Below the pieces are notes generated by a model. That model was not told where the DNA came from. It saw nothing but the letters and a program-made list of their open reading frames with translations, and made no database searches. This document shows, one piece after another, positions 7,016 through 46,809 of a stretch of DNA of 64,000 nucleotides. A program made the translations under genes and the position numbers. Source of the DNA: Craspedostauros australis (Eukaryota > Bacillariophyta > Bacillariophyceae > Mastogloiales > Achnanthaceae). Numbering within the stretch: the stretch's first letter is position 1; each line of letters begins with the position of its first letter. The stretch is taken from NCBI GenBank assembly GCA_026770025.1, contig JAMXDE010000027.1, forward strand, positions 310,001-374,000. The letters run 5' to 3'.

Positions 7016-7928
7016 TCAAATGATGGAAGCCATCACTGCCATACCTCCTCCGATCATCATCATCAAGACGCCAAAGAATTCCAGCGTGGAGCTGTACCCA
7101 CCGTGGATGCGACTGGCGCTGGATGTGTCAGATCCGTTGCCGCGATTGAGGATGGGTGTGGGTTGGCTCGGTTTAACGGTGGCCGTCGTTGACGGGGACG
7201 CTGTCGGCGTTTGTGATCCTGTCGGCTCCATGCTATCCAGAGACGATGGCTCGGAAGACTGCAGGGCGGACGGACCTTGGGTTGGCGATTCGGAACGCTG
7301 AGCCTCCACGTACGTGCTGAACGTCTTGACCGTGGCGGATGTCACCACCCGCATGTACGTGATTTCGCAATCCATGCTCGAGTACCGCTGCTGCACGTGC
7401 TCCATCGCAGCATTCGTCACGAAGCTATTGACCTCGTCCGTTTCGCAGGTGCGTCCGAGGCAGGCAGGTTCGCTGCGCATCAGCAACACCAGCTTCATCG
7501 ACGACACTCGAGAGTTGCACACGGCCTGGTAGAAGTACTCGTAGTAGTCACCGCCGTTGTCTTCGCAAATCCTCAGCAGGTTGTGCTGGAGGTCCTTCTG
7601 GTAGTCAAGTTCGCAGTGCTGCTCCCTACCATTCTTTCGAGAATCGCAAAACGATCCTTGAGACGTCAGATCGACGGCCCGATCCACGATCGTTGCAACC
7701 TCGGCCTTGATGGCTGCGTCACGATTCATAACGTCGATGCCATCCATGCAATGTCCCGTGATCTGTACAAGTGTTCGCGAGTCGGGCGGCACAGCAGAAT
7801 GGTCAATCAAAGGGAAGGGAAGGAGTGGCATGTAAAGAAGTGAGCGACCAAAGCTAAACAAAGCACGATACCTCATCGTATTGTGATTCCGTCAACTGCA
7901 ACAGCAATAGCAACAACGATGGTAACAT
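7016..7928 (-). other. Eight-cysteine C-terminal domain and hydrophobic tail (alternative: separate small secreted gene)
   Basis: Exon 3 encodes 248 residues starting at ITGHCMDGIDVMNRD. Eight Cys are spread over roughly the first 150 residues, then comes a Ser/Pro/Thr spacer (PTQGPSALQSSEPSSL) of the same style as the giant repeats, and a terminal hydrophobic run (FFGVLMMMIGGGMAVMA) with almost nothing after it, as in GPI-anchor signals. Two readings compete. In the first, this is the end of the giant gene. In the second, an ATG at 7928 starts an independent 267-residue protein whose signal peptide is MLPSLLLLLLQ. That Leu run is also what a TTG/CTG polypyrimidine tract before a CAG acceptor would encode by chance. 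The phase-0 match and shared Ser/Pro composition favour the first. The longer frame from 7876 (MRYRALFSF) is an intron read-through. Confidence 0.65.
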
Positions 7929-10900
7929 CAACGCACTCGCCAACGGGCATCGGCATACTCGCACGGTCGAAGCCAAATTGCATCGGCACAATGAGGAAAT
8001 GACATCATTTCCACCATGGGTTTGCCATTTCAATGATATTTGGAGCCTTGCACGGCAGTTGCGCTACATCTCAGCGTTGCGGCCATTTGTTCACTTACTC
8101 CCAACTCATTCGTTGGCGACATCGTCTCAATACTTGGTCGAGCACTGGGTCCGTCGGTCGGCGTCTTGCTGGGGACGGAAGATGGCGAAACTGAAGGAGA
8201 ATCTGTCGTCGGGCTTTGACTGGGCAAAGATGACGGGGAAACCGAAGGAGAATCCGTTGTGGGCTCGTCCGTCGGGTTCGATGTTGGGTTGGACGTGGAT
8301 GGTTGGTCAGAAGGTGCAGCCGTCGGTTTGCTTGTTGGAACCTCCGAAGGGGCCGTTGTTGGAATCGACGTTGGTGATGTGGATAACACCGAAGAGGGAT
8401 TTGGTGTGGGTAGATCACTCGGGGCTGTAGTTGGGTTGGAGGAATCCTTGGTGGTCGGAGCCATCGTTGGCTCATCGGATGGTTGGGCCGTACCGAAACT
8501 ATTTGGTGCCGAAACTGGCTGTTCTAGATCGTCTGTTGTTGGTGTGGGCGATTCAACGTTTCCATTTGTCGGAGTTGGTGCCGATGTTGGTAGCTGGGAC
8601 TCATCTGTTGTTCCGGATGGGATCTTTGTGGGAGAATCAGTTGGATTCTCGGTTGGCGCGTCTGTAGATCCAAAACCTGTGGGCATTTGAGATCTCTCGG
8701 TCGAAGGTGGGTCGCTCGGCTGCTGGGTGGGATTCTGCGAATCGAATGCATTTGGCGCAGATATGGGTGGCTCAACGGTATTTGAAGGCGTGGGATCAGC
8801 TGAAGGCGAGATCGATGGCAATTGCGACGGCGTATCGCTATCTTCAAAAGCATTTGGCGCCGAGACTGGCTGTTCAACCTCCGTGGTTGGGGATGCTGAT
8901 CGAGACGGAGAGACAGTCGTTGATGGTGTCGCAGAAGGCATCGCAGATGATGTCTCAGTCGGTGTCTCAGACGGTGTGGTGGATGGTTGTTCAGTTTCAG
9001 TGGTTGGAGACGATGATTGAGACGGAGAGGAAGTCGTTGACGGTGTCGCAGATGGCATCGTAGACGGCGCCATGGACGGTGCGTCGCTATCTTCAAAAGC
9101 ATTTGGCGCCGAGACTGGCTGTTCAACCTCCGTGGTTGGAGACCATGATTGAGATGGAGATGAAGTCGTTGATGGTGTTGTGGACGGTGTCGCAGATGAG
9201 GTCTCAGTCGGTGTCTCAGACGGTGTCGTGGATGGTTGTTCAGTTTCAGTGGTTGGGGATGCTGATTGAGATGGAGAGGAAGTCGTTGATGGTGTCGCAG
9301 ATGGCATCGTAGACGGCGCCATGGACGGTGCGTCGCTATCTTCAAAAGCATTTGGCGCCGAGACTGGCTGTTCAACCTCCGTGGTTGGAGACCATGATTG
9401 AGACGGAGAGACAGTCGTTGATGGTGTCGCAGAAGGCATCGCAGATGATGTCTCCGTTGGCGTCTCAGACGGTGTCGTGGATGGTTGTTCAGTTTCAGTG
9501 GTTGGGGATGCTGATTGAGATGGAGAGGAAGTCGTTGATGGTGTCGCAGATGGCATCGTAGACGGCGTCATGGACGGTGCGTCGCTATCTTCAAAATCAT
9601 TTGGCGCCGAGACTGGCTGTTCAACCTCCGTGGTTGGGGATGCTGATTGAGACGGAGAGACAGTCGTTGATGGTGTCGCAGAAGGCATCGCAGATGATGT
9701 CTCCGTTGGCGTCTCAGACGGTGTCGTGGATGGTTGATCAGTTTCAGTGGTTGGGGATGCTGATTGAGATGGAGAGGAAGTCGTTGATGGTGTCGCAGAT
9801 GGCATCGTAGACGGCGTCATGGACGGTGTCTCACTATCTTCAAAAGCATTTGGCGCCGAGACTGGCTGTTCAACCTCCGTGGTTGGGGATGCTGATTGAG
9901 ACGGAGAGACAGTCGTTGATGGTGTCGCAGATGGCATCGTAGACGGCGTCATGGACGGTGCGTCGCTATCACCGAAAGCATTTGGCGCCGAGACTGGCTG
10001 TTCAACCTCCGTGGTTGGGGATGCTGATTGAGACGGAGAGACAGTCGTTGATGGTGTCGCAGAAGGCATCGCAGATGATGTCTCCGTTGGCGTCTCAGAC
10101 GGTGTCGTGGATGGTTGTTCAGTTTCAGTGGTTGGGGATGCTGATTGAGATGGAGAGGAAGTCGTTGATGGTGTCGCAGATGGCATCGTAGACGGCGTCA
10201 TGGACGGTGTCTCACTATCTTCAAAAGCATTTGGCGCTGAGACTGGTTGTTCAACCTCCGTGGTTGGGGATGCTGATTGAGATGGAGATGAAGTCGTTGA
10301 TGGTGTTGTGGACGGTGTCGCAGATGAGGTCTCAGTCGGTGTCTCAGACGGTGTCGTGGATGGTTGTTCAGTTTCAGTGGTTGGGGATGCTGATTGAGAT
10401 GGAGAGGAAGTCGTTGATGGTGTCGCAGATGGCATCGTAGACGGCGTCATGGACGGTGTCTCACTATCTTCAAAAGCATTTGGCGCCGAGACTGGCTGTT
10501 CAACCTCCGTGGTTGGGGATGCTGATTGAGACGGAGAGACAGTCGTTGATGGTGTCGCAGATGGCATCGTAGACGGCGTCATGGACGGTGCGTCGCTATC
10601 ACCGAAAGCATTTGGCGCCGAGACTGGCTGTTCAACCTCCGTGGTTGGGGATGCTGATTGAGACGGAGAGACAGTCGTTGATGGTGTCGCAGAAGGCATC
10701 GCAGATGATGTCTCCGTTGGCGTCTCAGACGGTGTCGTGGATGGTTGTTCAGTTTCAGTGGTTGGGGATGCTGATTGAGACGGAGAGGAAGTCGTTGATG
10801 GTGTCGCAGATGGCATCGTAGACGGCGTCATGGACGGTGCGTCGCTATCACCGAAAGCATTTGGCGCCGAGACTGGCTGTTCAACCTCCGTGGTTGGGGA

Positions 10901-13900
10901 TGCTGATTGAGACGGAGAGACAGTCGTTGATGGTGTCGCAGAAGGCATCGCAGATGATGTCTCCGTTGGCGTCTCAGACGGTGTCGTGGATGGTTGTTCA
11001 GTTTCAGTGGTTGGGGATGCTGATTGAGATGGAGAGGAAGTCGTTGATGGTGTCGCAGATGGCATCGTAGACGGCGCCATGGACGGTGTCTCACTATCTT
11101 CAAAAGCATTTGGCGCTGAGACTGGTTGTTCGATATCCGTGGTTGGGGATGCTGATTGAGATGGAGATGAAGTCGTGGATGGTGTTGTGGACGGTGTCGC
11201 AGATGATGTCTCAGTCGATGTCTCAGACGGTGTGGTGGATGGTTGTTCAGTTTCAGTGGTTGGGGATGCTGATTGAGATGGAGAGGACGTCGTTGATGGT
11301 GTCGCAGATGGCATCGTAGACGGCGCCATGGACGGTGTCTCACTATCTTCAAAATCATTTGGCGCCGAGACTGGCTGTTCAACCTCCGTGGTTGGGGATG
11401 CTGATTGAGATGGAGATGAAGTCGTTGATGGTGTTGTGGACGGTGTCGCAGATGAGGTCTCAGTCGGTGTCTCAGACGGTGTCGTGGATGGTTGTTCAGT
11501 TTCAGTGGTTGGGGATGCTGATTGAGACGGAGAGGAAGTCGTTGATGGTGTCGCAGATGGCATCGTAGATGGCGTCATGGACGGTGCGTCGCTATCACCG
11601 AAAGCATTTGGCGCCGAGACTGGCTGTTCAACCTCCGTGGTTGGGGATGCTGATTGAGACGGAGAGACAGTCGTTGATGGTGTCGCAGAAGGCATCGCAG
11701 ATGATGTCTCCGTTGGCGTCTCAGACGGTGTCGTGGATGGTTGTTCAGTTTCAGTGGTTGGGGATGCTGATTGAGATGGAGAGGAAGTCGTTGATGGTGT
11801 CGCAGATGGCATCGTAGACGGCGCCATGGACGGTGTCTCACTATCTTCAAAAGCATTTGGCGCTGAGACTGGTTGTTCGATATCCGTGGTTGGGGATGCT
11901 GATTGAGACGGAGAGACAGTCGTTGATGGTGTTGTGGACGGTGTCGCAGATGATGTCTCAGTCGATGTCTCAGACGGTGTGGTGGATGGTTGTTCAGTTT
12001 CAGTGGTTGGGGATGCTGATTGAGATGGAGAGGACGTCGTTGATGGTGTCGCAGATGGCATCGTAGACGGCGCCATGGACGGTGTCTCACTATCTTCAAA
12101 ATCATTTGGCGCCGAGACTGGCTGTTCAACCTCCGTGGTTGGGGATGCTGATTGAGACGGAGAGACAGTCGTTGATGGTGTCGCAGAAGGCATCGCAGAT
12201 GATGTCTCCGTTGGCGTCTCAGACGGTGTCGTGGATGGTTGTTCAGTTTCAGTGGTTGGGGATGCTGATTGAGATGGAGAGGAAGTCGTTGATGGTGTCG
12301 CAGATGGCATCGTAGACGGCGTCATGGACGGTGTCTCACTATCTTCAAAAGCATTTGGCGCCGAGACTGGCTGTTCAACCTCCGTGGTTGGGGATGCTGA
12401 TTGAGACGGAGAGACAGTCGTTGATGGTGTCGCAGAAGGCATCGCAGATGATGTCTCCGTTGGCGTCTCAGACGGTGTCGTGGATGGTTGATCAGTTTCA
12501 ATTGTTGGGGATGCTGATTGAGATGGAGAGGAAGTCGTTGATGGTGTCGCAGATGGCATCGTAGACGGCGTCATGGACGGTGCGTCGCTATCACCGAAAG
12601 CATTTGGCGCCGAGACTGGCTGTTCAACCTCCGTGGTTGGGGATGCTGATTGAGACGGAGAGACAGTCGTTGATGGTGTCGCAGAAGGCATCGCAGATGA
12701 TGTCTCCGTTGGCGTCTCAGACGGTGTCGTGGATGGTTGTTCAGTTTCAGTGGTTGGGGATGCTGATTGAGATGGAGAGGAAGTCGTTGATGGTGTCGCA
12801 GATGGCATCGTAGACGGCGTCATGGACGGTGCGTCGCTATCTTCAAAATCATTTGGCGCCGAGACTGGCTGTTCAACCTCCGTGGTTGGAGACCATGATT
12901 GAGATGGAGATGAAGTCGTCGATGGCGTTGCGGAAGGTGCCCTTGTCACATTGGTGTCTGTCGCGTTGATATCACTTGACGGAGCATCAGACGGCAGTGT
13001 CGATGGAATCTCAGTTTCGTTGGTGTCGCTTGGTGGAGCCTCTGAAGGCGTCGCTGACGGAACAACCGTCGTGTTGTTATCCGTTGTATTCTGCTCGCTT
13101 GATGGAGCCGCTGAAGGCATCGCAGATGGAATCTCAGTTGCATTTGCGTTGCTGGATGGCATGTCTGATGGCATCGCGGACGGGATCTCCGTTGCATTGG
13201 TCTCCGTTGCGTTGGTGTCGCTTGACGGAGCTGATGATGGAATCGCGGACGGAATTTCTGTTGCGTTTGGGTCCGTTGCGTTGGCATCGTTTGATGGAAC
13301 CGCAGATGGAATCTCCGTTGTGTTGGTATCTGTTGTGTTGATGTCGTTTGATGGAGCCTCCGAAGGCAACGTGGACGGGACCTCTGTGGCATTTGCATCC
13401 GTCAGATTGGTGTCGCTTGATGGCATCTCTGATGGTAGTGTCGATGGAATCTCTGTTGCGTTGTTGTCGCTTGACGGAGCAGTGGAAGGCATTGTCGACG
13501 GAGCAGTCGTTGCGTTGCTATCCGTTGTATTGGTGTCGCTCGACGGAGCTTCTGAAGGTATCGTTGAAGGAACAGCCGTTGTATTGGATTCTGTCGTATT
13601 CTGCTCGCTTGATGGAGCCTGCGAAGGCATCGCAGATGGAATCTCAGTTGCATTTGCGTCGCTGGACGTCATGTCTGATGGCATCGCGGACAGAACCTCC
13701 GTTGCATTGGTCTCCGTTGCGTTGTTGTCGCTCGATGGTGCCTCTGAAGGAATCATCGATGGAGCAGCCGTTGCATTAGAGTCTGTTTCGTTGGAATCAC
13801 TTGATGGAGCGGATGATGGTATCGTAGATGGAATCTCTGTTTCGTTGGTGTCCGTCGCATTAGTGTCGCTAGACGGAGCCTCCGAAGGCATCATCGATGG

Positions 13901-16900
13901 AACTGTCGTCGCGTTTGTGTCGCTGGATGGCATATCTGATGGCAGCACCGATGGGACCTCCGTTGTGTTGTTGCCATTTGATGGCGCAGACGATGGCACC
14001 GAGGACGGGAACTCAGTTGCATTGGAGCCCGTCGCATTGGTGTCGCCAGATGGCATCACAGATGGAACAGCCGTCGCATTGGTCTCAATCGATGGGACAC
14101 CAGAAGGCATCAACGATGGGACCTCAGTTGTATTTCCGTCGGTTGTGTTGTTCTCGCTTGGAGTAGATGAGAGCATCGCTGACGGGACCTCTGTTGCATT
14201 GGTCTCCGTCAAGTTGGATTCTCTGGAAGGCCTGTCTGATGGCATCGCAGATGGAGCAGCCGTTGTATTTGAGTCTGTAGTATTTTGGTCACTGGATGGA
14301 GCCAATGATGGCAGCTCGGACGGGGCCTCTGTTGCGTTCGAGTCTGTCGCATTGGTTCCAATCGATGGAGTCTGCGAAGGTATCATCGATGGAATAGTTG
14401 TTGCATTTGTGCCTGTTATGTTGTTGTTGGACGGAGTAGACGATGGCATCATCGATGGCATCGCTGTGACATTGGCGTCAGTTCCATTGGTATCGCTTGG
14501 CGCGGAGGAGGGCATGACGGACGGGATATCCGTTGCATTGACATTAGTTTCGTTGGTGTTGGTTGGGGAGCCCGAAGGCATGGTCGATGGCACCTCCGTC
14601 GTATTGACGTCAGTTGCGTTGACCTCGCTTGGTGCGACCGATGGCAGTGTTGATGGAATCTCCGTCGCATTGGTATCGGTTGCGTTGGTCTCGCTTGGTG
14701 CGGCTGATGGCGTCGTTGATGGGGTCTCCGTCGCATTGGCATCGGTTGCATTGGTCTCGCTTGGCGCATCAGAACGCATCGTTGATGGAATTGCCGTTGC
14801 ATTGGCATCAGTTGCGTTGGTCTCACTTGGTGTGGCCGATGGCATCGTTGATGGCACCTCCGTTGCATTGGCATCGGTTGCATTGGTCTCACTTGGTGCA
14901 TCAGAAGGCATGGTTGATGGCACCTCCGTGCTGTTGGGATCAGTTGCGTTGGTCTCACTTGGTGCGTTCGATGGCATCATCGATGGGGTCTCCGTTGTAT
15001 TGGTATCGGTTGCATTGGTCTCACTTGGTGCGTTCGAAGGCATCGTTGATGGAACATCCGTGCTGTTGGCGGTAGTTGAATTGGTCTCGCTTGGTGCGTT
15101 CGATGGCATGGTTGATGGAATCTCTGTGCTGTTGGCGGTAGTTGCATTGGTCTCGCTTGGTGCATCAGAAGGCATGGTTGATGGAATCTCCGTGCTGTTG
15201 GCGGTAGTTGAATTGGTCTCACTTGGTGCGTTCGATGACATCGTTGATGGCACATCCGTGCTGTTGGCGGTAGTTGAATTGGTCTCACTTGGTGCGTTCG
15301 ATGGCATGGTTGATGGCACATCCGTGCTGTTGGCATCGGTTGCATTGGTCTCATTTGGTGCATCAGAAGGCATGGTTGATGGCACATCCGTGCTGTTGGC
15401 GGTAGTTGCATTGGTCTCACTTGGTGCATCAGAAGGCATGGTTGATGGCACATCCGTGCTGTTGGCATCGGTTGCATTGGTCTCGCTTGGTGCGTTCGAT
15501 GGCATCGTTGATGGAACATCCGTGCTGTTGGCGGTAGTTGCATTGGTCTCACTTGGTGCATCAGAAGGCATGGTTGATGGAACATCCGTGCTGTTGGCGG
15601 TAGTTGCATTGGTCTCACTTGGTTCGACCGATGGCAGTGTTGATGGAATCTCCGTCGCATTGGCATCGGTTGCGTTGGTCTCACTTGGTGCGTTCGATGG
15701 CATCGTTGATGGAACATCCGTGCTGTTGGCATCGGTTGCATTGGTCTCACTTGGTGCATCAGAAGGCATGGTTGATGGCACATCCGTGCTGTTGGCGGTA
15801 GTTGAATTGGTCTCACTTGGTGCATCAGAAGGCATGGTTGATGGAATCTCCGTGCTGTTGGCGGTAGTTGCATTGGTCTCACTTGGTGCATCAGAAGGCA
15901 TGGTTGATGGCACATCCGTGCTGTTGGCGGTAGTTGCATTGGTCTCACTTGGTGCGTTCGATGGCATCGTTGATGGAACATCCGTGCTGTTGGCGGTAGT
16001 TGCATTGGTCTCACTTGGTGCGTTCGATGGCATCGTTGATGGAACATCCGTGCTGTTGGCATCGGTTGCATTGGTCTCACTTGGTGCATCAGAAGGCATG
16101 GTTGATGGAATCTCCGTGCTGTTGGCGGTAGTTGCATTGGTCTCACTTGGTGCATCAGAAGGCATGGTTGATGGCACATCCGTGCTGTTGGCGGTAGTTG
16201 CATTGGTCTCACTTGGTGCGTTCGATGGCATCGTTGATGGAACATCCGTGCTGTTGGCATCGGTTGCATTGGTCTCATTTGGTTCGACCGATGGCAGTGT
16301 TGATGGAATCTCCGTCGCATTGGCATCGGTTGCGTTGGTCTCACTTGGTGCGTTCGATGGCATCGTTGATGGAACATCCGTGCTGTTGGCATCGGTTGCA
16401 TTGGTCTCGCTTGGTGCGTTCGATGGCATGGTTGATGGAATCTCCGTGCTGTTGGCGGTAGTTGCATTGGTCTCACTTGGTGCATCAGAAGGCATGGTTG
16501 ATGGCACATCCGTGCTGTTGGCGGTAGTTGCATTGGTCTCACTTGGTGCGTTCGATGGCATCGTTGATGGAACATCCGTGCTGTTGGCATCGGTTGCATT
16601 GGTCTCATTTGGTTCGACCGATGGCAGTGTTGATGGAATCTCCGTCGCATTGGCATCGGTTGCGTTGGTCTCACTTGGTGCGTTCGATGGCATCGTTGAT
16701 GGAACATCCGTGCTGTTGGCATCGGTTGCATTGGTCTCACTTGGTGCATCAGAAGGCATGGTTGATGGAACATCCGTGCTGTTGGCATCGGTTGCATTGG
16801 TCTCACTTGGTGCATCAGAAGGCATGGTTGATGGAACATCCGTGCTGTTGGCATCGGTTGCATTGGTCTCACTTGGTGCGTTCGAAGGCATGGTTGATGG

Positions 16901-28900: not shown

Positions 28901-31900
28901 TATGATCGATGGGATCTCCGTTGAGTTGACACCAGTTGCGTTGACTTCGCTTGGAGCTGACGAAGGTATGGTCGATGGAATCTCCGTTGCATTGGTGTCG
29001 GTTGCATTGATCTCACTTGGTGCAGACGAAGGCATGGTCGATGGAATCTGCGTTGAGTTGGTGTTGGTTGCATTGATCTCACTTGGTGCCGACGAAGGCA
29101 TTATGGATGGGATCTCCGTTTCGTTGAAGTCCGTGACATTGATCGCACTTGGAGCCGACGAAGGCATCGTGGATGGGATCTCCGTTGCATTGGCGTCGGT
29201 TGCATTGATCTCACTTGGGGAGTCTGAGGGCATCCTGGATGGAATCTCCGTTGCATTGACGTCGGTTGCATTGATCTCACTGGATGCAGACGAAGGTATG
29301 GTCGATGGGATCTCTGTTGCATTGACATCAGTTGCATTGACTTCGCTTGGTGCAGACGAAGGTATGGTCGATGGAATCTCCGTTGCATTGGCGTCGGTTG
29401 CATTGACTTCACTTGGAGCAAACGAAGGAATGGTCGATGGAATCTCCGTTGCATTGGAGTCCGTGGCGTTGATCTCACTTGGAGCCGACGAAGACATCGT
29501 GGATGGCACTTCCGTTGCATTGGTGTCGGTTGCGTTGATCTCACTTGGGGAAGACGAAGGAATGGTCGATGGGACCTCCGTTGCATTGGTGTCGGTTGCA
29601 TTGACTTCACTTGGTGCCGACGAAGGTATGGTCGATGGAATCTCCGTTTCATTGACATCAGTTGCATTGACTTCGCTTGGGGCCGACGAAGGAATAGTCG
29701 ATGGGATCTCCGTTGAGTTGACGTCGGTTGCATTGGTCTCACTTGGAGCAGACGAAGGCATCGTGGATGGAATCTCCGTTGAGTTGGTGTCGGTTGTATT
29801 GATCTCACTTGGAGCAGACGAAGGAATGGTCGATGGAACATCCGTGCTGTTGGCATCGGTTGTATTGATCTCACTTGGAGCAGACGAAGGCATCGTGGAT
29901 GGGATCTCCGTTGAGTTGACGTCGGTTGTATTGATCGCACTTGGTGCAGACGAAGGAATGGTCGATGGAATCTCCGTTGAGTTGGTGTCGGTTGCATTGA
30001 TCTCACTTGGAGCCGACGAAGGTATCGTGGATGGGACCTCCGTTGAGTTGGTGTCGGTTGCATTGACTTCACTTGGAGCTGACGAAGGCATCGTAGATGG
30101 CACTTCCGTTGAGTTGGCGTCGGTTGCATTGGTCTCACTTGGAGCAGACGAAGGCATCGTGGATGGCGCTTCCGTTGAGTTGGTGTCGGTTGCATTGATC
30201 TCACTTGGAGCAGACGAAGGAATGGTCGATGGAACATCCGTGCTGTTGGCATCGATTGAGTTGATCTCGCTTGGAGCCGACGAAGGAATGGTCGATGGGA
30301 TCTCCGTTGCATTGGCGTCGGTTGCATTGGTCTCACTTGGAGCAGACGAAGGCATCGTGGATGGGATCTCCGTTGCATTGGTGTCGGTTGTATTGATCTC
30401 ACTTGGAGCAGACGAAGGTATGGTCGATGGGATCTCCGTTGAGTTAGCCTCGGTTGTATCGATCTCACTGGGTGCAGACGAAGGCATGGTCGATGGGATC
30501 TCGGTTGCATTGACATCAGTTGCATTGACTTCGCTTGGATCCGACGAAGGCATCGTGGACGGAATCTCAGTGACGTTGGTGTCGGTGTCAGTGATGTTGT
30601 TGTCGCTTGGAGTATCAGAAGGCATCATGGAAGGAACATCTGTCGTATTGGCATCAGTTGTGTTAGCAGCGCTTGGAGCATCCGAAGGTATCGTTGATGG
30701 AATCTCCGTTGCATTCAAATCGGTTGCGTTGATCTCGCTGGGAGCACCAGAGGGAAAGGTTGATGGTACTTCCGTTACATTGGCATCAGTTGTGTTGATC
30801 TCACTCGGAGCTCCAGAGGGCATGGTTGATGGGATAGTTGTCGCATTGGCATCAGTCGTGTTAGTGTTGCTTGGTGCATCAGAGGGCACCATTGATGGGA
30901 TATCTGTTGTTGCATTGAAGTCAGTGGCATTCGTCTCACTCGGAACGCCCGAAGGTATCATCGATGGCATCTCTGTTGCATTCGCATCAGTCGCGTTGAT
31001 ATCACTTGGAGCGGCGGAAGGCATCGTGGATGGTATCTCTGTTGCATTCGCGTCAGTTGCGTTGGTCTCGCTCGGGGCATCTGAAGGCACAACCGATAGG
31101 CTAGATGGTTGAGCCGACGGCAGCATCGACGGTTCTGTTGATGGAGCGATGGAAACCTGTGATGGAAGACCAGACGGTCCGCTGGATGGGTTCAGAGATG
31201 GAAGGTCAGATCCCGTGGATGGTTCTCCAGAGGGTGTTTCAGACGGGTCAAGCGATGGTTCATTTGATAGCAACGTTGGCCCAATTGAAGGCTCACTCGA
31301 AGGTCCATTCGAAGGGACCTCAGACCCCCTAGATGGTCGTTCCGATGGCATGATCGACGGATTTGCCGACGGTCTATCAGATACCTGCGATGGATGATCA
31401 GAAGGACTATCAGACGGCTGAGTAGATGGCCGATCAGACATCTGAGATGGAGTCAATGATGGGCCAGTTGATGGATAGTCCGATGGCATATCGGATGCGA
31501 TCGAAGGGCCTGCAGAAGGAACGGTAGATGGTTCCGTCGATGGCACCGCTGATACTTGAGATGGTAACAACGATGGCGCCACTGATGGATTGGCTGACGG
31601 CAAGCCCGATGACTGTGATGGTGTCATCGAAGGAGAATCGGAAGGAATTGATGAAGGCGTGTTCGATTGTTGCGATGGTTGGACCGAGGGTTCAGTTGAC
31701 GGACCTGCAGATGGAAAACCAGATGCTTGAGATGGCGCTTGTGATGGCTCAACTGAAGGATCTGATGACGGCACCTCAGATGCCTGCGACGGGACGGTGG
31801 AAGGCGCATTCGACGGGTCGCGAGATGGACCTGCCGATAGTTGGGATGGAAGCGACGAAGGCCCGGCCGAAGGGTCCGCTGAAGGAACGTCCGATGCCTG

Positions 31901-34900
31901 TGATGGCCCGATGGATGGTTCAGTCGACGGGGGAGCCGAAGGCAAATCCGATGCTTTGGATGGTTGATCCGAAGGTCCCATGGAAGGGTGAATAGAAGGC
32001 ACCTCTGATGCTTCTGACGGTTGGTTGGAGGGTGTTATCGATGGTTCGTCCGACGGTTCATCAGATGCATTGGACGGCATCGACGATGGCGAAGCCGATG
32101 GCGCCGTCGACGGCACATCAGACGATTCGGATGGTTGGTCAGAGGGCCCTACGGATGGGTCAGCAGACGGTACATCGGACGATTCGGATGGTTGAGATGA
32201 AGGTGCCGATGATGGATCCGCAGATGGTACATCAGAAGCTTCAGATGGCTGTGATGAAGGTTCTGACGATGGATCCGCAGACGGCACATCTGATGACTCA
32301 GATGGCTGCGACGAGGGTGCCGACGATGGATCCGCAGACGGTACATCCGATGACTCAGATGGTTGAGATGAAGGTGCCGACGATGGATCTGCAGACGGTA
32401 CATCAGACGATTCGGATGGCTGTGATGAGGGTGCCGATGATGGATCTGCAGACGGTACATCAGAAGCTTCAGATGGCTGTGATGAAGGTTCTGACGATGG
32501 ATCCGCAGATGGTACATCTGATGACTCAGATGGCTGTGACGAAGGTGCCGACGACGGATCCGCAGACGGTACATCAGACGATTCGGATGGCTGTGATGAA
32601 GGTTCTGACGACGGATCTGCAGACGGTACATCAGAAGCTTCAGATGGTTGAGATGAAGGTGCCGATGATGGATCTGCAGATGGTACATCTGATGACTCAG
32701 ATGGCTGTGACGAAGGTGCCGACGACGGATCCGCAGACGGTACATCAGACGATTCGGATGGCTGAGATGAAGGTGCCGATGATGGATCTGCAGACGGTAC
32801 ATCAGAAGCTTCAGATGGCTGTGATGAAGGTTCTGACGATGGATCTGCAGACGGTACATCAGACGATTCGGATGGCTGTGATGAAGGTTCTGACGACGGA
32901 TCTGCAGATGGTACATCAGACGATTCGGATGGCTGAGATGAAGGTGCCGATGATGGATCTGCAGACGGTACATCCGATGACTCAGATGGCTGTGATGAAG
33001 GTTCTGACGATGGATCCGCAGATGGTACATCAGATGACTCAGATGGCTGTGACGAAGGTGCCGACGACGGATCCGCAGACGGTACATCAGACGATTCGGA
33101 TGGCTGAGATGAAGGTGCCGATGATGGATCTGCAGACGGTACATCAGAAGCTTCAGATGGCTGTGATGAAGGTTCTGACGACGGATCTGCAGATGGTACA
33201 TCAGACGATTCGGATGGCTGAGATGAAGGTGCCGATGATGGATCTGCAGACGGTACATCAGACGATTCGGATGGCTGTGATGAGGGTGCCGATGATGGAT
33301 CTGCAGATGGTACATCAGAAGCTTCAGATGGCTGTGATGAAGGTTCTGATGATGGATCTGCAGACGGTACATCAGACGATTCGGATGGCTGTGACGAAGG
33401 TGCCGACGACGGATCTGCAGACGGTACATCAGACGATTCGGATGGCTGAGATGAAGGTGCCGATGATGGATCCGCAGACGGTACATCAGAAGCTTCAGAT
33501 GGCTGTGATGAAGGTGCCGATGATGGATCTGCAGACGGTACATCAGACGATTCGGATGGCTGTGACGAAGGTGCCGATGATGGATCTGCAGATGGTACAT
33601 CCGATGACTCAGATGGCTGTGATGAAGGTTCTGACGACGGATCTGCAGACGGTACATCAGAAGCTTCAGATGGCTGTGATGAAGGTGCCGATGATGGATC
33701 TGCAGATGGTACATCTGATGACTCAGATGGTTGAGATGAAGGTTCTGACGATGGATCCGCAGACGGTACATCAGACGATTCGGATGGCTGTGATGAAGGT
33801 GCCGACGACGGATCCGCAGACGGTACATCAGACGATTCGGATGGCTGTGATGAAGGTTCTGACGATGGATCCGCAGATGGTACATCTGATGACTCAGATG
33901 GCTGTGACGAAGGTGCCGACGACGGATCCGCAGACGGTACATCAGACGATTCGGATGGCTGTGATGAAGGTTCTGACGACGGATCTGCAGATGGTACATC
34001 CGATGACTCAGATGGCTGAGATGAAGGTGCCGATGATGGATCTGCAGACGGTACATCAGACGATTCGGATGGCTGTGATGAGGGTGCCGATGATGGATCT
34101 GCAGACGGTACATCAGAAGCTTCAGATGGCTGTGATGAAGGTTCTGATGATGGATCTGCAGACGGTACATCAGACGATTCGGATGGCTGAGATGAGGGTG
34201 CCGATGATGGATCTGCAGACGGTACATCCGATGACTCAGATGGCTGTGATGAAGGTGCCGATGATGGATCTGCAGATGGTACATCAGACGATTCGGATGG
34301 TTGAGATGAAGGTGCCGATGATGGATCTGCAGATGGTACATCCGATGACTCAGATGGTTGAGATGAAGGTTCTGACGATGGATCCGCAGACGGTACATCA
34401 GACGATTCGGATGGCTGTGATGAAGGTTCTGACGACGGATCTGCAGACGGTACATCAGACGATTCGGATGGCTGCGACGAGGGTGCTGACGATGGATCTG
34501 CAGACGGTACATCCGATGACTCAGATGGCTGAGATGAAGGTGCCGATGATGGATCCGCAGATGGTACATCAGACGATTCGGATGGCTGAGATGAGGGTGC
34601 CGATGATGGATCTGCAGATGGTACATCCGATGACTCAGATGGCTGTGATGAAGGTGCCGATGATGGATCTGCAGATGGTACATCAGACGATTCGGATGGC
34701 TGCGACGAGGGTGCCGATGATGGATCTGCAGACGGTACATCAGAAGCTTCAGATGGCTGTGATGAAGGTTCTGACGATGGATCCGCAGATGGTACATCAG
34801 AAGCTTCAGATGGCTGTGATGAAGGTTCTGACGACGGATCTGCAGATGGTACATCAGACGATTCGGATGGCTGAGATGAAGGTGCCGATGATGGATCTGC

Positions 34901-37900
34901 AGACGGTACATCAGAAGCTTCAGATGGCTGTGATGAAGGTTCTGACGACGGATCTGCAGATGGTACATCAGACGATTCGGATGGCTGAGATGAAGGTGCC
35001 GATGATGGATCTGCAGACGGTACATCAGACGATTCGGATGGCTGTGATGAGGGTGCCGATGATGGATCTGCAGATGGTACATCAGAAGCTTCAGATGGCT
35101 GTGATGAAGGTTCTGATGATGGATCTGCAGACGGTACATCAGACGATTCGGATGGCTGTGACGAAGGTGCCGACGACGGATCTGCAGACGGTACATCAGA
35201 CGATTCGGATGGCTGAGATGAAGGTGCCGATGATGGATCCGCAGACGGTACATCAGAAGCTTCAGATGGCTGTGATGAAGGTGCCGATGATGGATCTGCA
35301 GACGGTACATCAGACGATTCGGATGGCTGTGACGAAGGTGCCGATGATGGATCTGCAGATGGTACATCCGATGACTCAGATGGCTGTGATGAAGGTTCTG
35401 ACGACGGATCTGCAGACGGTACATCAGAAGCTTCAGATGGCTGTGATGAAGGTGCCGATGATGGATCTGCAGATGGTACATCTGATGACTCAGATGGTTG
35501 AGATGAAGGTTCTGACGATGGATCCGCAGACGGTACATCAGACGATTCGGATGGCTGTGATGAAGGTGCCGACGACGGATCCGCAGACGGTACATCAGAC
35601 GATTCGGATGGCTGTGATGAAGGTTCTGACGATGGATCCGCAGATGGTACATCTGATGACTCAGATGGCTGTGACGAAGGTGCCGACGACGGATCCGCAG
35701 ACGGTACATCAGACGATTCGGATGGCTGTGATGAAGGTTCTGACGACGGATCTGCAGATGGTACATCCGATGACTCAGATGGCTGAGATGAAGGTGCCGA
35801 TGATGGATCTGCAGACGGTACATCAGACGATTCGGATGGCTGTGATGAGGGTGCCGATGATGGATCTGCAGACGGTACATCAGAAGCTTCAGATGGCTGT
35901 GATGAAGGTTCTGATGATGGATCTGCAGACGGTACATCAGACGATTCGGATGGCTGAGATGAGGGTGCCGATGATGGATCTGCAGACGGTACATCCGATG
36001 ACTCAGATGGCTGTGATGAAGGTGCCGATGATGGATCTGCAGATGGTACATCAGACGATTCGGATGGTTGAGATGAAGGTGCCGATGATGGATCTGCAGA
36101 TGGTACATCCGATGACTCAGATGGTTGAGATGAAGGTTCTGACGATGGATCCGCAGACGGTACATCAGACGATTCGGATGGCTGTGATGAAGGTTCTGAC
36201 GACGGATCTGCAGACGGTACATCAGACGATTCGGATGGCTGCGACGAGGGTGCTGACGATGGATCTGCAGACGGTACATCCGATGACTCAGATGGCTGAG
36301 ATGAAGGTGCCGATGATGGATCCGCAGATGGTACATCAGACGATTCGGATGGCTGAGATGAAGGTGCCGATGATGGATCTGCAGATGGTACATCCGATGA
36401 CTCAGATGGCTGTGATGAAGGTGCCGATGATGGATCTGCAGATGGTACATCAGACGATTCGGATGGCTGCGACGAGGGTGCCGATGATGGATCTGCAGAC
36501 GGTACATCAGAAGCTTCAGATGGCTGTGATGAAGGTTCTGACGATGGATCCGCAGATGGTACATCAGAAGCTTCAGATGGCTGTGATGAAGGTTCTGACG
36601 ACGGATCTGCAGATGGTACATCAGACGATTCGGATGGCTGAGATGAAGGTGCCGATGATGGATCTGCAGACGGTACATCAGAAGCTTCAGATGGCTGTGA
36701 TGAAGGTTCTGACGACGGATCTGCAGATGGTACATCAGACGATTCGGATGGCTGAGATGAAGGTGCCGATGATGGATCTGCAGACGGTACATCAGACGAT
36801 TCGGATGGCTGTGACGAAGGTGCCGATGATGGATCTGCAGATGGTACATCCGATGACTCAGATGGCTGTGATGAAGGTTCTGACGACGGATCTGCAGACG
36901 GTACATCAGAAGCTTCAGATGGCTGTGATGAAGGTGCCGATGATGGATCTGCAGATGGTACATCTGATGACTCAGATGGTTGAGATGAAGGTTCTGACGA
37001 TGGATCCGCAGACGGTACATCAGACGATTCGGATGGCTGTGATGAAGGTGCCGACGACGGATCCGCAGACGGTACATCAGACGATTCGGATGGCTGTGAT
37101 GAAGGTTCTGACGATGGATCCGCAGATGGTACATCTGATGACTCAGATGGCTGTGACGAAGGTGCCGACGACGGATCCGCAGACGGTACATCAGACGATT
37201 CGGATGGCTGAGATGAAGGTTCTGACGACGGATCCGCAGACGGTACATCCGATGACTCAGATGGTTGAGATGAAGGTGCCGATGATGGATCTGCAGATGG
37301 TACATCAGAAGCTTCAGATGGCTGTGATGAAGGTGCCGACGATGGATCCACAGACGGCACATCAGACGATTCGGATGGCTGTGATGAAGGTGCCGACGAC
37401 GGATCTGCAGACGGTACATCAGACGATTCGGATGGCTGTGATGAAGGTGCCGACGACGGATCCGCAGACGGTACATCAGATGACTCAGATGGTTGAGATG
37501 AAGGTTCTGACGATGGATCTGCAGATGGTACATCAGAAGCTTCAGATGGCTGTGATGAAGGTGCCGACGATGGATCCACAGACGGCACATCAGATGATTC
37601 GGATGGCTGTGACGAAGGTGCCGACGACGGATCCGTGGACGGTACATCAGACGATTCGGATGGCTGTGATGAAGGTTCTGACGACGGATCCGCAGACGGT
37701 ACATCCGATGACTCAGATGGTTGAGATGAAGGTGCCGATGATGGATCTGCAGATGGTACATCAGAAGCTTCAGATGGCTGTGATGAAGGTGCCGACGATG
37801 GATCCACAGACGGCACATCAGATGATTCGGATGGCTGTGACGAAGGTGCCGACGACGGATCTGCAGACGGTACATCAGACGATTCGGATGGCTGAGATGA

Positions 37901-40900
37901 AGGTGCCGACGACGGATCCGCAGACGGTACATCAGATGACTCAGATGGTTGAGATGAAGGTTCTGACGACGGATCTGCAGATGGTACATCAGAAGCTTCA
38001 GATGGCTGAGATGAAGGTTCTGACGACGGATCCGCAGACGGTACATCCGATGACTCAGATGGCTGTGATGAAGGTTCTGACGATGGATCTGCAGATGGTA
38101 CATCAGACGATTCGGATGGCTGCGACGAGGGTGCTGACGACGGATCCGCAGACGGTACATCAGACGATTCGGATGGCTGTGATGAAGGTTCTGACGATGG
38201 ATCCGTGGACGGCACATCAGACGATTCGGATGGCTGCAACGAGGGTGCTGACGACGGATCCGCAGATGGTGCATCCGATGACTCAGATGGTTGAGATGAA
38301 GGTGCCGATGATGGGTCAGCAGACGGTACATCAGACGATTCGGATGGCTGCGACGAGGGTGCCGACGACGGATCTGCAGATGGTACATCAGAAGCTTCAG
38401 ATGGTTGAGATGAAGGTGCCGACGACGGATCTGCAGACGGTACATCAGATGATTCGGATGGCTGCGACGAAGGTGCCGATGATGGATGCGTGGACGGTAC
38501 ATCAGACGATTCGGATGGTTGAGATGAAGGTGCCGATGATGGATCTGCAGATGGTACATCCGATGACTCAGATGGCTGAGATGAAGGTGCTGACGATGGA
38601 TCCGCAGACGGTACATCAGATGATTCGGATGGCTGTGACGAGGGTGCCGATGATGGATGCGTGGACGGTACATCCGATGACTCAGATGGCTGCGACGAGG
38701 GTGCCGACGACGGATCTGCAGACGGTACATCAGATGACTCAGATGGCTGAGATGAAGGTGCCGATGATGGATCCGTGGACGGTACATCCGATGACTCAGA
38801 TGGCTGGGACGAAGGTGCCGATGATGGATCTGCAGACGGTACATCAGACGATTCGGATGGCTGTGACGAAGGTACCGATGATGGATCCGCAGATGGTACA
38901 TCCGATGACTCAGATGGCTGTGACGAAGGTGCCGACGATGGATCCGTGGACGGTACATCCGATGACTCAGATGGTTGAGATGAAGGTGCTGACGATGGAT
39001 CTGCGGAAGGCACATCCGATGATTCGGATGGTTGTGACGAGGGTGCTGACGACGGATCTGCAGACGGTACATCAGACGATTCGGATGGCTGAGATGAAGG
39101 TGCCGATGATGGGTCAGCAGACGGTACATCCGATGACTCAGTTGGCTGTGACGAGGGTGCCGACGACGGACTTCGTGATGGTACATCCGAAGATTGCGAT
39201 GGTTCTGCTGATGGACTTGTGGATGGAACATTCGACGCTTGAGACGGATGGTCAGAAGGTTGAGTTGACGGAATAGCAGAAGCTTGAGAAGGTTCTACGG
39301 ATGGATTCGTTGAAGGTATATCCGAAGATCGCGACGGTTCTGCTGACGGATTTGTCGATGGCACATCAGAAGCCCGGGACGGTGCTGCTGATGGATTCGT
39401 CGAAGGCGCCTCTGAGGCTTGGGACGGCTCTGCTGATGGACTTTCAGAGGGCATGTCGGATTCCTGCGATGGCTCTGCTGAAGGTTGTGTAGATGGTACA
39501 GCGGATGCTTGAGAAGGCTCTGCTGACGGATTCGTTGACGGTGCCTCAGACGATTGCGACGGTGCAGCTGACGGACTTGTGGACGGCGCATCCGACGCTT
39601 GCGACGGTTGATCGGATGGTTGCGCTGATGGTACAGCAGAGGATTGCGACGGTTCTGCAGATGGATTCGTCGAAGGTACAGCAGATGCTTGAGACGGCTC
39701 TGCCGACGGACTTGTGGACGGCACTTCGGATGCCTGAGATGGTTTTGCTGAAGGCTGCGAAGATGGCACATCCGAGGCTTGGGACGGCTCTACTGACGGA
39801 CTTGTCGATGGCACAGATGACGCTTGCGACGGTTGATCGGATGGTTGTGCTGATGGTACATCTGAGGCTTGGGACGGTTCTGCTGACGGATTGCTGGAGG
39901 GTACATCGGATACCTGAGACGGTTCTGCAGATGGGTTTCCGGATGGTACGTCTGATGCTTGAGAAGGCTCTGTGGACGGATTCGTTGATGGTACATCCGA
40001 CGCTTGCGACGGTTCTGCTGACGGATCTGCGGACGGTGCATCAGAAGCTTGCGACGGTTGGTCGGATGGTTGAGCTGATGGCACAGCAGAGGATTGCGAC
40101 GGTTCTGCAGATGGATTCGTCGAAGGTACAGCAGATGCTTGAGACGGCTCTGCCGACGGACTTGTCGACGGCACATCCGATGCTTGCGACGGTTGATCGG
40201 ATGGTTGCGCTGACGGCACATCTGAGGCTTGGGACGGCTCTGTAGACGGACTACCGGAGGGTACATTGGATGCCTGAGACGGTTCAGCTGATGGATTTCC
40301 AGATGGCACATTCGACGCTTGCGATGGCTCCGTTGAAGGCTGTGAAGATGGTACATCTGAGGCTTGGGACGGTTCTGCAGATGGGCTTGTCGATGGCAAA
40401 GCAGAAGCTTGCGATGGTTGTGCTGACGGATTCGTCGACGGTACATCAGAAGACAGTGATGGTTCTGCCGATGGACTTGCAGAGGGAACCTCGGATGCCT
40501 GGGACGGTTCTGCAGATGGGTTTGTCGATGGCGCAGCCGACGCTTGCGACGGTTGATCGGATGGTTGCGCTGACGGCAGAGCAGAAGCTTGAGACGGTTC
40601 TGATGACGGATTCGTCGACGGCACACCCGAGGCTTGGGACGGCTCTGCTGACGGACTTGTCGATGGCACACCCGAGGCTTGGGATGGCGCTTGAGACGGA
40701 CTCTCGCTGGTGGAATTGTCGGAAAGCTGCCGCGTCGCTGCATGCAGCACGCTGTCGTGATCTGAGGGCGGAGTCTTGTCCTCATCGATTGTGCGTTGCA
40801 TCACATGCTCATCGCCGCGGCCGCCATCATACCCCGACTGCTGTATGCCATCATCGATGGGTTCATCACGCGATGTCTGGTACCACACGCGGACCGACAC

Positions 40901-41035
40901 CAGCGCAAAGACGATGAGCCCGTACGCCACCAACCGGGCAGGCCGCGCATCGTTCCTTCGTTTCTGTCTGTCTTGCGTAGCGGGTGTTCGTCGTCGTCGT
41001 CGACGACGTTGAGATTGGATCTGATCGATGGCCAT
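7016..41035 (-). CDS. Giant mucin-like Pro/Ser/Thr repeat protein, membrane-anchored
   Basis: Exon 1 (41035-8099) is 10,979 codons without a stop. It opens with an Arg-rich cytosolic start and a signal-anchor helix (VAYGLIVFALVSVRVWY, about residues 35-51). Four repeat zones follow: 15-residue PSxxPSxxPSQASxx units (about residues 105-600), 19-residue units around SSDVPSADPSSAPSSQPSE (about 620-2960), 22-residue units with NATDxNATE plus PSTIPSSAPS (about 3310-9360), and 83-residue units with VEQPVSAPNAFEDS (about 9370-10800). Exon 1 ends in phase 0 at a GTAAGT donor. A 24-base exon (7895-7872) and exon 3 (7762-7016) add an eight-Cys domain and a hydrophobic tail, giving 11,235 residues. The repeats are acidic, nearly free of Lys/Arg, and I noticed no Cys in exon 1. 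I infer a heavily glycosylated surface or mucilage glycoprotein. If the splice is wrong, exon 1 would stop at 8030 as an 11,001-residue protein. Confidence 0.8.
7763..8098 (-). other. Two introns flanking a 24-base micro-exon of the giant gene
   Basis: On the minus strand, intron 1 runs from 8098 (GTAAGTG) to 7896 (pyrimidine-rich tract ending TTGCAG), 203 bases. The micro-exon 7895-7872 encodes LTESQYDE. Intron 2 runs from 7871 (GTATCG) to 7763 (TTGTACAG), 109 bases. All three exons join in phase 0. The in-frame stop at 8030-8032 and the TAG inside intron 2 lie in removed sequence. The sites were identified by eye. Confidence 0.65.
8640..12930 (-). repeat. 249-bp tandem array (83-residue units)
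   Basis: Units of 249 bp recur with starts at about 9079, 9328, 9577, 9958, 10207, 10588, 10837, 11086 and so on to about 12580. Each encodes 83 residues, including VEQPVSAPNAFEDS and two internal copies of a PSATPSTTxSPSQSASPTTE segment. Two 132-bp short units (about 9826-9957 and 10456-10587) have lost 39 residues between those internal copies. Larger blocks are also duplicated, for example three units (747 bp) between about 10828 and 12129. Confidence 0.93.
12950..31110 (-). repeat. 66-bp tandem array (22-residue, sequon-bearing units)
   Basis: About 18 kb, roughly 275 units of 66 bp, each coding NATD-x-N(A/S)T(E/D) followed by (I/V)PST(I/M)PSxxPSE. Three sub-zones differ in consensus. 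At about 18,600-31,100 the units are mostly PSTIPSSAPSEI/EV. At about 14,500-18,600 they are mostly ETNAT with STDVPSTMPS. At about 12,950-14,500 they are divergent, often lack one NAT, and use SSDTNAT. Higher-order periodicity is visible, with near-identical segments at 22615, 23143, 23539, 24133, 24661, 25057 and onward, spaced by 8, 6 or 9 units. Confidence 0.95.
31110..32150 (-). other. Irregular Pro/Ser linker between the 57-bp and 66-bp arrays
   Basis: About 350 codons of the giant gene where the PSxxPS rhythm persists but no unit is copied exactly. Words such as PSQASDVPS, PSMTPSQSS and PSDAPSETN vary from one to the next. It looks like an old, diverged 15-residue array, similar in style to the N-terminal zone. 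Confidence 0.8.
32150..39170 (-). repeat. 57-bp tandem array (19-residue units)
   Basis: About 7 kb, roughly 120-125 units of 57 bp encoding SSDVPSADPSSAPSSQPSE with limited substitutions (A/E before PSS, S/A in ESS/EAS). A 1,767-bp block of 31 units beginning near 33,12x recurs almost base for base near 34,89x, and a partial third copy starts near 36,66x. Confidence 0.95.
39290..40720 (-). repeat. 45-bp degenerate tandem array (15-residue units)
   Basis: Fifteen-residue units of the form PSTNPSAEPSQASDV repeat directly after the signal-anchor stem of the giant protein. At DNA level the 45-bp spacing is clear but copies have diverged more than in the neighbouring arrays, suggesting an older expansion. 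Confidence 0.9.
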
Positions 41036-45471: not shown

Positions 45472-46809
45472 ATGATCAAATCAACCCTCCTTCTCTGCTG
45501 TTGCGCCGCCGCCGCCGTCACGTTCGTGCAGGCCCGCGAAATCGAGGCAACCCAAGAATGGCAGCTCCTCGGCGACAATGACACCATCGCGGCAGGCATG
45601 CACGTGCGCATGGACATGACGACGGGTGAAAAGTGGGTCAAGCTTCCGGACGAGCAAGATACCTCGGCCGTCGCGACGATCGATGCGGAGACCGGCATGG
45701 TGGAGACGTCGCAGACCAGCGACAAGCCATCGTACGACTACGACATGATGCATCGCACGTTATCCAAGTTGCCGCAAGAAGAACAAGATCGATTCGGCGG
45801 ACTGCCGCGCAAGGAGACGATGTCACCTGAAGCACGCAAGATCTTCGAAGAGCGGTTGGCCGCAATTTGGAAACAGCGTCAGCAGGAATTGCTCGAATTG
45901 GAGACCATCGATCTACCCGAGGTCTTGAAGATGCGCATTCGAGACATTCGCGACTACTTGCAGGATCCCATCAAGGATCTGGTGGAGGTGCTCGAGGATC
46001 TGGAATACCATCTCAGCGATATTGATATGGCACGCGATTTCCACACGTTGGGTGGTTGGCCGTTGCTAGTGTCGCTGTTGCGCGATGATGCGCACGCGGT
46101 CAATGCGACGAACGTCACCAACAAACTGCGCATCCAACGATACGCGGCGTGGGCCATCGGAACGATGGTGAAGAACACGGGGGAATTCGCATCGTACGCG
46201 GTGGAATCCGTGGGACAGCACAACGCCATGGATCTGACGATGGCCTTGTTGCGCCAATCCAACAATGACAATGACGAACAACTGCGATTGCGAGAAAAGG
46301 CAATGTACGCCCTGGGCAGCATGCTGCGCGGCAATCGTCTGGCGCAGCTCCAGTTCTGCAATGCCAACACGCATGACATGCACGAGCTCTTGGCATCCAC
46401 ATCCGATCATCCCAAACTCATGCAGCGATTGTTGGCGCTGGCCGGCGACATCGTGTCGGACGTTGCGTGGGATCAAGAAGTCGAAGGATTGTCGGCACAG
46501 CAAAAGCAGAGCCAGGACAGTCTCATCACGCAGTGTTTCGCATCGCGGGAATGGTGCGACTTTGCGCACCGCATGATGACGATGCCACAAGCACCAACAT
46601 CAACGCCGTTCGTCGTCACGGCGCTGCAAACGACCAAGGCGCTGGCGCCGTACTGTTGGAAGGAAGACAAGTTCGCCAAGAAGCAGACCTTGCTGGATGG
46701 TATCCTCAATATTCGAGCGCGGTGGGGAGCCGATACAGGAGCTTTCGACGATGAGTACTTGGAGGAGTTGAATGGCATCGCTGACGGCGCAGTCGCTGCG
46801 TTGCAATAG
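45472..46809 (+). CDS. SIL1: SIL1-type nucleotide exchange factor for ER Hsp70 (BiP)
   Basis: The 445-residue product begins with a clear signal peptide (MIKSTLLLCCCAAAAVTFVQA, cleavage after about residue 21). Residues of about 150-420 form Armadillo-like helical repeats, with the family signature of a paired-helix region (LEDLEYHLSDIDMARDF, then LGGWPLLVSLLRDD), a YAAWAIGTMVKN helix and a KAMYALGSMLRGN helix. These match the Sil1/Fes1/HspBP1 pattern, in which such proteins release ADP from Hsp70. With a signal peptide the ER-lumenal Sil1 branch fits best. No KDEL-like C-terminus is present; the product ends in AVAALQ. It is intronless, and the CA-rich leader just before the ATG supports the start. 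Diatoms also have a second, symbiont-derived ER-like compartment, so a role there cannot be excluded. Confidence 0.82.
   Translation: MIKSTLLLCCCAAAAVTFVQAREIEATQEWQLLGDNDTIAAGMHVRMDMTTGEKWVKLPDEQDTSAVATIDAETGMVETSQTSDKPSYDYDMMHRTLSKLPQEEQDRFGGLPRKETMSPEARKIFEERLAAIWKQRQQELLELETIDLPEVLKMRIRDIRDYLQDPIKDLVEVLEDLEYHLSDIDMARDFHTLGGWPLLVSLLRDDAHAVNATNVTNKLRIQRYAAWAIGTMVKNTGEFASYAVESVGQHNAMDLTMALLRQSNNDNDEQLRLREKAMYALGSMLRGNRLAQLQFCNANTHDMHELLASTSDHPKLMQRLLALAGDIVSDVAWDQEVEGLSAQQKQSQDSLITQCFASREWCDFAHRMMTMPQAPTSTPFVVTALQTTKALAPYCWKEDKFAKKQTLLDGILNIRARWGADTGAFDDEYLEELNGIADGAVAALQ

Follow-up and report, generated by a model that had tools for sequence, protein, structure and literature searches.

What kind of gene fills a stop-free reading frame of 11,003 codons in a diatom genome? 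The frame lies on the minus strand at 8030-41041 of a 64,000-nucleotide stretch of Craspedostauros australis DNA (assembly GCA_026770025.1, contig JAMXDE010000027.1, positions 310,001 to 374,000; the whole stretch is called the window below), and it is the longest open reading frame (ORF) in that window. We consider it probable, judging from the sequence, that the frame belongs to an intact gene for a secretory-pathway megamucin, a glycan bottlebrush that would be either secreted or anchored at the cell surface. The earliest in-frame ATG is at 41035, with an in-frame stop directly upstream, and 10,979 codons (32,937 bp) separate it from a phase-0 donor, GGA/GTAAGTG, at 8098. An acceptor in phase with this donor (TTGTACAG/ATC, at 7762) would lead into a further 248 codons closed by a TGA stop at 7016. 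A preliminary description of the locus had claimed a minus-strand frame of 10,979 codons up to a splice donor and a protein of about 11,200 residues and 1.1 MDa. Both claims hold: the frame runs from 41035 to 8099 and meets a GTAAGT in phase 0, and the predicted spliced product has 11,227 residues, a mass of 1.118 MDa and an isoelectric point (pI) of 4.05. The predicted layout is as follows.

8099..41035, minus: predicted exon 1, coding part; 10,979 codons, 32,937 bp, ATG at 41035
40682..41035, minus: unique N-terminus, 118 residues; basic stretch RRRRRRR followed by the hydrophobic segment RLVAYGLIVFALVSVRVWY, a candidate signal anchor or long signal peptide
39166..40681, minus: 15-residue array; 33 units, consensus QASDVPSTNPSAEPS, no N-sequons
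32107..39165, minus: 19-residue array; 123 units, consensus SSDVPSADPSSAPSSQPSE, no Lys or Arg, no N-sequons
31070..32106, minus: diverged link; absent from the list of tandem arrays, PS spacings of 4 and 7 kept
14573..31069, minus: 22-residue array, the putative N-glycan module; consensus ETNATDANATEIPSTIPSSAPS, 502 N-X-S/T sequons in a block of 5,499 residues, 248 in-register units out of about 250
12938..14572, minus: irregular sequon-rich link; 48 sequons in 545 residues
8836..12937, minus: 83-residue array; about 16 copies (Tandem Repeats Finder, 16.4), motif EQPVSAPN[AD]F, no N-sequons; 14 units above threshold, two steps of 127 residues
8099..8835, minus: PT-rich tail; two diverged SAPN-F motifs
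7763..8098, minus: predicted intron, 336 bp; donor GTAAGTG, acceptor TTGTACAG
7016..7762, minus: predicted exon 2, 248 residues and stop; a domain (7274-7762) with all 8 Cys, a Pro/Ser/Thr linker and a hydrophobic C-terminal segment

Tandem repeats rich in Pro, Ser and Thr, the trait of mucins of the Pro/Ser/Thr (PTS) type, extend across most of the chain. The three residues together make up 54.8% of exon 1; the earlier wording, "almost wholly" Pro/Ser/Thr, was therefore loose. All eight Cys of the protein are in exon 2, and the C-terminus ends in a hydrophobic segment (KD19 hydropathy 2.06) that resembles a glycosylphosphatidylinositol (GPI) signal or a tail anchor. A hydrophobic segment is also present at the N-terminus, where the preliminary description placed a signal-anchor helix. 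Its KD19 peak of 1.72, at residue 33, is borderline, and this part of the description is correspondingly weaker. The hydrophobic ends and the acidic, PS-rich chain between them support the suggestion, made there too, of a large polymer suited to mucilage, adhesion or a surface coat.

The evidence that carries this reading comes from the way in which the repeat units differ from each other. In the 15-residue array, variation at third codon positions is 0.455 (first 0.099, second 0.095); it is 0.248 in the 19-residue array (first 0.015, second 0.021), 0.254 in the 22-residue array (first 0.096, second 0.078) and 0.081 among 14 units of the 83-residue array (first 0.023, second 0.017). For the 15-, 19- and 22-residue arrays, third-position variation is about 2.6 to 16 times that at first and second positions. 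The 123 units of the 19-residue array hold 70 DNA variants but 11 protein variants. When each distinct unit was compared with its nearest neighbour unit, the ratio of nonsynonymous to synonymous change (pN/pS) in the proposed frame was 0.249, 0.043 and 0.384 in the same three arrays, and 0.476 in the 83-residue array, which offers only 12 distinct units. No stop codon occurs among the 210, 154 and 544 changes counted in the 15-, 19- and 22-residue arrays, for which a neutral model expects about 25-30. Counting reciprocal pairs once reduces this expectation by about half, and the chance of finding none is still below 1e-5. At the level of sequence comparison, these patterns show that the three arrays are under purifying selection in the minus-strand frame.

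The strand call has two grounds: the minus-strand frame is the only one open through all arrays, and the antisense frame with the same wobble positions contains stops. In that antisense frame the stops number 16, 42, 0 and 34 across the 15-, 19-, 22- and 83-residue arrays; interrupted in three of the four, it cannot be the gene. The other four frames have pN/pS above 0.8 in every array. Two long plus-strand ORFs were considered as genes and rejected as shadows. One, at 12903-31112 (6,069 codons), is in a frame with stops in three arrays; it stays open opposite the 22-residue array because stops there need minus-strand Tyr, His or Gln codons, and these residues number 5 in 5,499. The other, at 31996-39276 (2,426 codons), has a pN/pS of 4.4.

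Within this chain the 22-residue array stands out through its sequons. The protein has 553 N-X-S/T sequons, 502 of them in this array and 48 in the link that follows; the 15-, 19- and 83-residue arrays have none. Composition shuffles of the block (n = 500) give 170 +/- 11 sequons, against the 502 observed. In register, 490 of 496 sequons are intact. The Asn columns are conserved in 245 and 247 of the 248 units and the Thr columns in 247 and 247, with variable middle residues between them (commonest residue in 203/248 and 142/248 units). The codons tell the same story: those for the sequon N and T have 47 synonymous and 7 nonsynonymous changes (pN/pS 0.042), whereas those for X have 15.5 and 42.5 (pN/pS 1.23), a contrast with a Fisher p of about 1e-10 on rounded counts. 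The PS columns of the array have 68 synonymous and 22 nonsynonymous changes (pN/pS 0.137), and the remaining columns 124.6 and 217.4 (pN/pS 0.516). Residues other than Thr occur in 13 of 248 units at the non-sequon Thr 15 and in 2 of 496 cases at the two sequon Thr columns (p 3e-5, from copies that are not independent).

This is the pattern that selection for N-glycosylation sites would leave, beside selection on the P/S lattice. The argument relies on the pN/pS contrast within the sequon. The predominance of N-X-T (551 of the 553 sequons, with the two N-X-S outside the 22-residue array) was tried as a proof of selection and is weakened as such, since replacement of T by S is also rare at the non-sequon Thr (1/248). 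The label "mucin-like" in the preliminary description fits the PTS repeats and misses this block of 5,499 residues, whose 502 N-sequons appear to be under selection. Among the 12 literature titles listed, out of 67, we found no algal tandem-repeat protein built on N-sequons, which is weak evidence of absence. The N-glycan module looks new, within a class of roughly 1-MDa and mucin-like diatom surface proteins that passages of PMC11420354 already report. The earlier claim of a rare and undescribed kind of protein is weaker for that, given the CaTrailin4, Ca5609 and CaFAP1 described in the same passages and a 15-/19-residue part that matches the known Pfam PT repeat.

The arrays also share a lattice. 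PS dipeptides are spaced 4,4,7 in the 15-residue array, 4,4,4,7 in the 19-residue array and mostly 4,4,14 in the 22-residue array; in the 83-residue array 82 of 162 spacings are 4, the others being 6, 12, 13 or 26. On this spacing, the 15-, 19- and 22-residue formats follow a single grammar, a PS at every fourth residue and a linker, and are not independent inventions; the 83-residue format follows this xxPS grammar in part. The 22-residue format may be this lattice again, its linker lengthened and carrying two sequons. All four formats that had been reported are present, three of them as variations of one xxPS lattice. The 83-residue array has a further element, the motif [EQ].P[VI]SAPN.F, in 18 copies, with 2 further, diverged ones in the tail (8099-12937 altogether, minus strand). 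Its Phe is the sole aromatic residue of the 83-residue consensus; a role in binding would be speculation.

For the Pfam scans exon 1 was split into four chunks (E up to 0.1), and exon 2 was scanned at E up to 1. The PT disordered repeat, PF04886, matches the chunk at 31114-41035 that holds the 15- and 19-residue arrays (E 4.4e-73, 241 bits against a cut-off of 26.2), with its best stretch in the 19-residue array. The three other exon 1 chunks, those with the 22- and 83-residue arrays included, have no match to this family, and the tail reaches 24.8 bits, under the cut-off. Neither exon matched the vWD, cystine-knot or SEA domains of animal mucins in these scans. There was likewise no Pfam match to beta-helix, vWD or GDPH modules, the existence of Pfam models for GDPH and beta-helix being unchecked. 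A search of IMG/VR with 220 residues of the 22-residue array found no relatives.

How might such a protein work? The chain would enter the endoplasmic reticulum (ER) via its N-terminal hydrophobic segment, where oligosaccharyltransferase would load the 22-residue array with N-glycans, and the Pro/Ser/Thr lattice would take O-glycans or Pro hydroxylation. The modified lattice and the acidic linkers could then keep the chain stiff, hydrated and protease-resistant. With one end held at the cell surface by the Cys domain and the end segment, the shaft would project as a polyanionic bottlebrush, serving as a coat, a lubricant or an adhesive strand; between these three uses the sequence cannot separate. 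At the mucin contour of 0.25 nm per residue, the shaft would be about 2.8 um long. The diatom P. tricornutum makes oligomannoside N-glycans, according to a passage of PMC7773692.

Several points weigh against this picture. Repeat copies share ancestry, so that counts over copies are not independent, which nearest-neighbour counting lessens and does not remove. Moreover, pN/pS alone barely separates the minus-strand frame from the wobble-sharing antisense frame, which has values of 0.309, 0.073, 0.407 and 0.417 in the 15-, 19-, 22- and 83-residue arrays, the last slightly below that of the proposed frame. With its borderline KD19 of 1.72, the N-terminal hydrophobic core may be an anchor, a cleaved signal or neither. 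Neighbouring sequons are 5 residues apart in 244 of 501 spacings, a distance at which some sites may stay without a glycan. For exon 2, no Pfam family passed the cut-off (best SUKH_6, E 0.2), the PDB gave nothing better than E 0.65, and no relatives were found in the IMG/VR or GTDB contigs, which are viral and prokaryotic collections; the AlphaFold model of exon 2 is poor, with a pLDDT of 47 for the whole and 48 for the first 157 residues. Finally, that a diatom makes mucin-type O-glycans is assumed: the passages on O-glycans in PMC7773692 concern green algae, and microalgal O-glycosylation is called poorly known there.

Could the locus be something other than one intact gene? The unspliced frame stops at 8030 (after KYH), and the frame of exon 2 has an ATG of its own at 7876, as though a repeat protein ended at 8030 and a separate small gene occupied 7016-7876. 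We think this improbable. A codon score, trained on the same neighbouring ORFs that supply 94 comparison windows and so favouring those ORFs, is +0.22 for exon 2 (7019-7762) in its own frame and negative in the remaining five; across 7763-7876 it is -0.48, under all 94 windows, and a separate gene starting at 7876 was rejected on this score. For the intron the score is below zero in each of the six frames. Compared with the neighbouring windows, whose 5th percentile is 0.124 and 50th percentile 0.347, exon 2 and the N-terminus (0.127) score in the lower half of the range. Also counter to two genes, the donor at 8098 is a full GTAAGT in phase, one of only 4 on the minus strand of the window and with none inside the 32.9-kb exon 1, and the P/S/T-rich linker of exon 2 resembles exon 1. 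The splice between the exons is a prediction. Arguing for an inflated or mis-joined assembly, or for an unexpressed repeat array, are exact internal duplications of 1,514 bp (33081/34848, 19-residue array) and 1,301 bp (22557/24075, 22-residue array). These suggest either very recent block duplication, hence length polymorphism, or local assembly error. Against this, units differ at the DNA level (70 variants among 123 units, and 144 among the 248 of the 22-residue array), the frame is unbroken and pN/pS is well under 1; much of the remaining repeat sequence has diverged enough for long reads to tell copies apart. We regard an artefact or a silent array as highly improbable.

Two other explanations accept the gene and assign it another task. 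In the first, the protein would be the long elastic shaft by which a gliding diatom connects its membrane side with the substrate, the basic N-terminal tail lying in the cytoplasm. The hydrophobic segments near both ends and the basic tail fit such a tether, yet disordered glycan brushes usually lubricate or repel. A micron-scale length would exceed the raphe thickness of 300-500 nm, and proteins of this kind are proposed as transducer and adhesive in a passage of PMC11420354; a drawing in PMC13056149 includes an unnamed transmembrane complex as the link between myosin and strands of extracellular polymeric substances (EPS). Counter to this, the part of PMC3821603 on diatom adhesives ascribes their sawtooth force curves to modular proteins, and our Pfam scans found no folded module. 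We give this explanation a small probability. The protein could instead be an acidic, PS-rich organic-matrix polymer of the silica frustule or girdle, as its pI of 4.05 would allow. Repetitive sequences with much Pro, Ser and acidic residues are common among diatom wall proteins. Silaffin-type biosilica proteins, however, have Lys-rich clusters, which are missing from exon 1 with its 10 Lys in 10,979 residues; the hydrophobic C-terminal end suggests membrane anchoring, and to our knowledge dense N-sequons are not a feature of wall proteins. A wall protein seems to us hardly likely.

The favoured reading, a megamucin of the secretory pathway, can be set beside known systems. CaTrailin4 (about 900 kDa), Ca5609 (more than 1 MDa) and the mucin-like CaFAP1 are surface proteins of Craspedostauros australis in the account given in PMC11420354. 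Like the adhesive trail proteins CaTrailin4 and Ca5609, as characterized in part of that source, the predicted product is a diatom protein of about 1 MDa that would be extracellular and about 2 um long. The size is matched (1.118 MDa); secretion is deduced from hydropathy only. CaTrailin4 and Ca5609 are called modular, and a passage of PMC10713564 has CaTrailin_4 as predicted beta-helical and ice-binding-protein-like. In the present protein, by contrast, the scans found no Pfam domain beyond the PT repeat, and the shaft consists of low-complexity PS and sequon repeats. Its mucin-like character recalls CaFAP1, a likeness by description only. PF04886 is a likeness for the 15-/19-residue chunk and not for the 22- and 83-residue chunks, and membership of this family says nothing about function. 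MUC16 and other cell-surface mucins of animals combine a huge PTS tandem-repeat ectodomain with very large exons and a membrane anchor near the end; here, in contrast, Pfam reports no SEA, vWD or other mucin domain, and half of the chain is dominated by N-X-T sequons. The hyosophorins of fish, far smaller and found in egg cortical granules, consist of tandem repeats each with an N-glycan; the likeness, again by description, is in repeats that bear (here predicted) N-glycan sites.

The protein might even be a dual-glycan megapolymer of a new structural class, whose N-X-T array of 5,500 residues, maintained by selection, forms an N-glycan bottlebrush ('N-mucin') flanked by acidic PS shafts without sequons, with anchoring at one or both ends. 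We hold this to be unlikely. In a gliding diatom such a polymer could be the missing tether from membrane to substrate, an idea worth testing and only a lead.

Identification of the polymers by which diatoms glide, stick and foul is only beginning. With just 43 Lys and Arg in exon 1, a protein of this kind would hardly show up in trypsin proteomics, a possible reason why its like are missed: in silico digestion leaves pieces of up to 3,114 residues, and 22 of the 54 peptides fall in the range of 7-35 residues. With the sequon array occupied, each molecule could carry up to about 550 N-glycans, and at 1.88 kDa for Man9GlcNAc2 the mass of sugar would roughly equal that of protein. This would place an unusual load on the ER pathway and is a clear, testable prediction.

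Other genes of the window are given for context; as neighbours they are consistent with a diatom genome. Just upstream of the giant gene, at 41614-44280 on the minus strand, is a low-complexity ORF of 888 residues with no Pfam match up to E 0.1. An ORF at 45472-46809 (plus) has weak HEAT and Fes1 matches under cut-off and no PDB match at E 0.001; to call it a SIL1-like ER nucleotide exchange factor would be a guess. At 58605-63608 (minus) a receptor-like gene has an adenylate/guanylate cyclase domain split across two ORFs, apparently, by eye, by a GTACGT...CAG intron, and then a cyclic-nucleotide phosphodiesterase domain. Fusion of cyclase and phosphodiesterase is a diatom trait; a literature search on it turned up nothing. 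Scans for tRNAs and Rfam families gave 0 matches. One ORF at 53440-55791 (plus) combines kelch repeats with DUF4110. Finally, a single ORF at 49233-51545 (minus) carries two HSF-type DNA-binding domains (E 8.8e-42), a family whose expansion in diatoms is described in a passage of PMC7335047.

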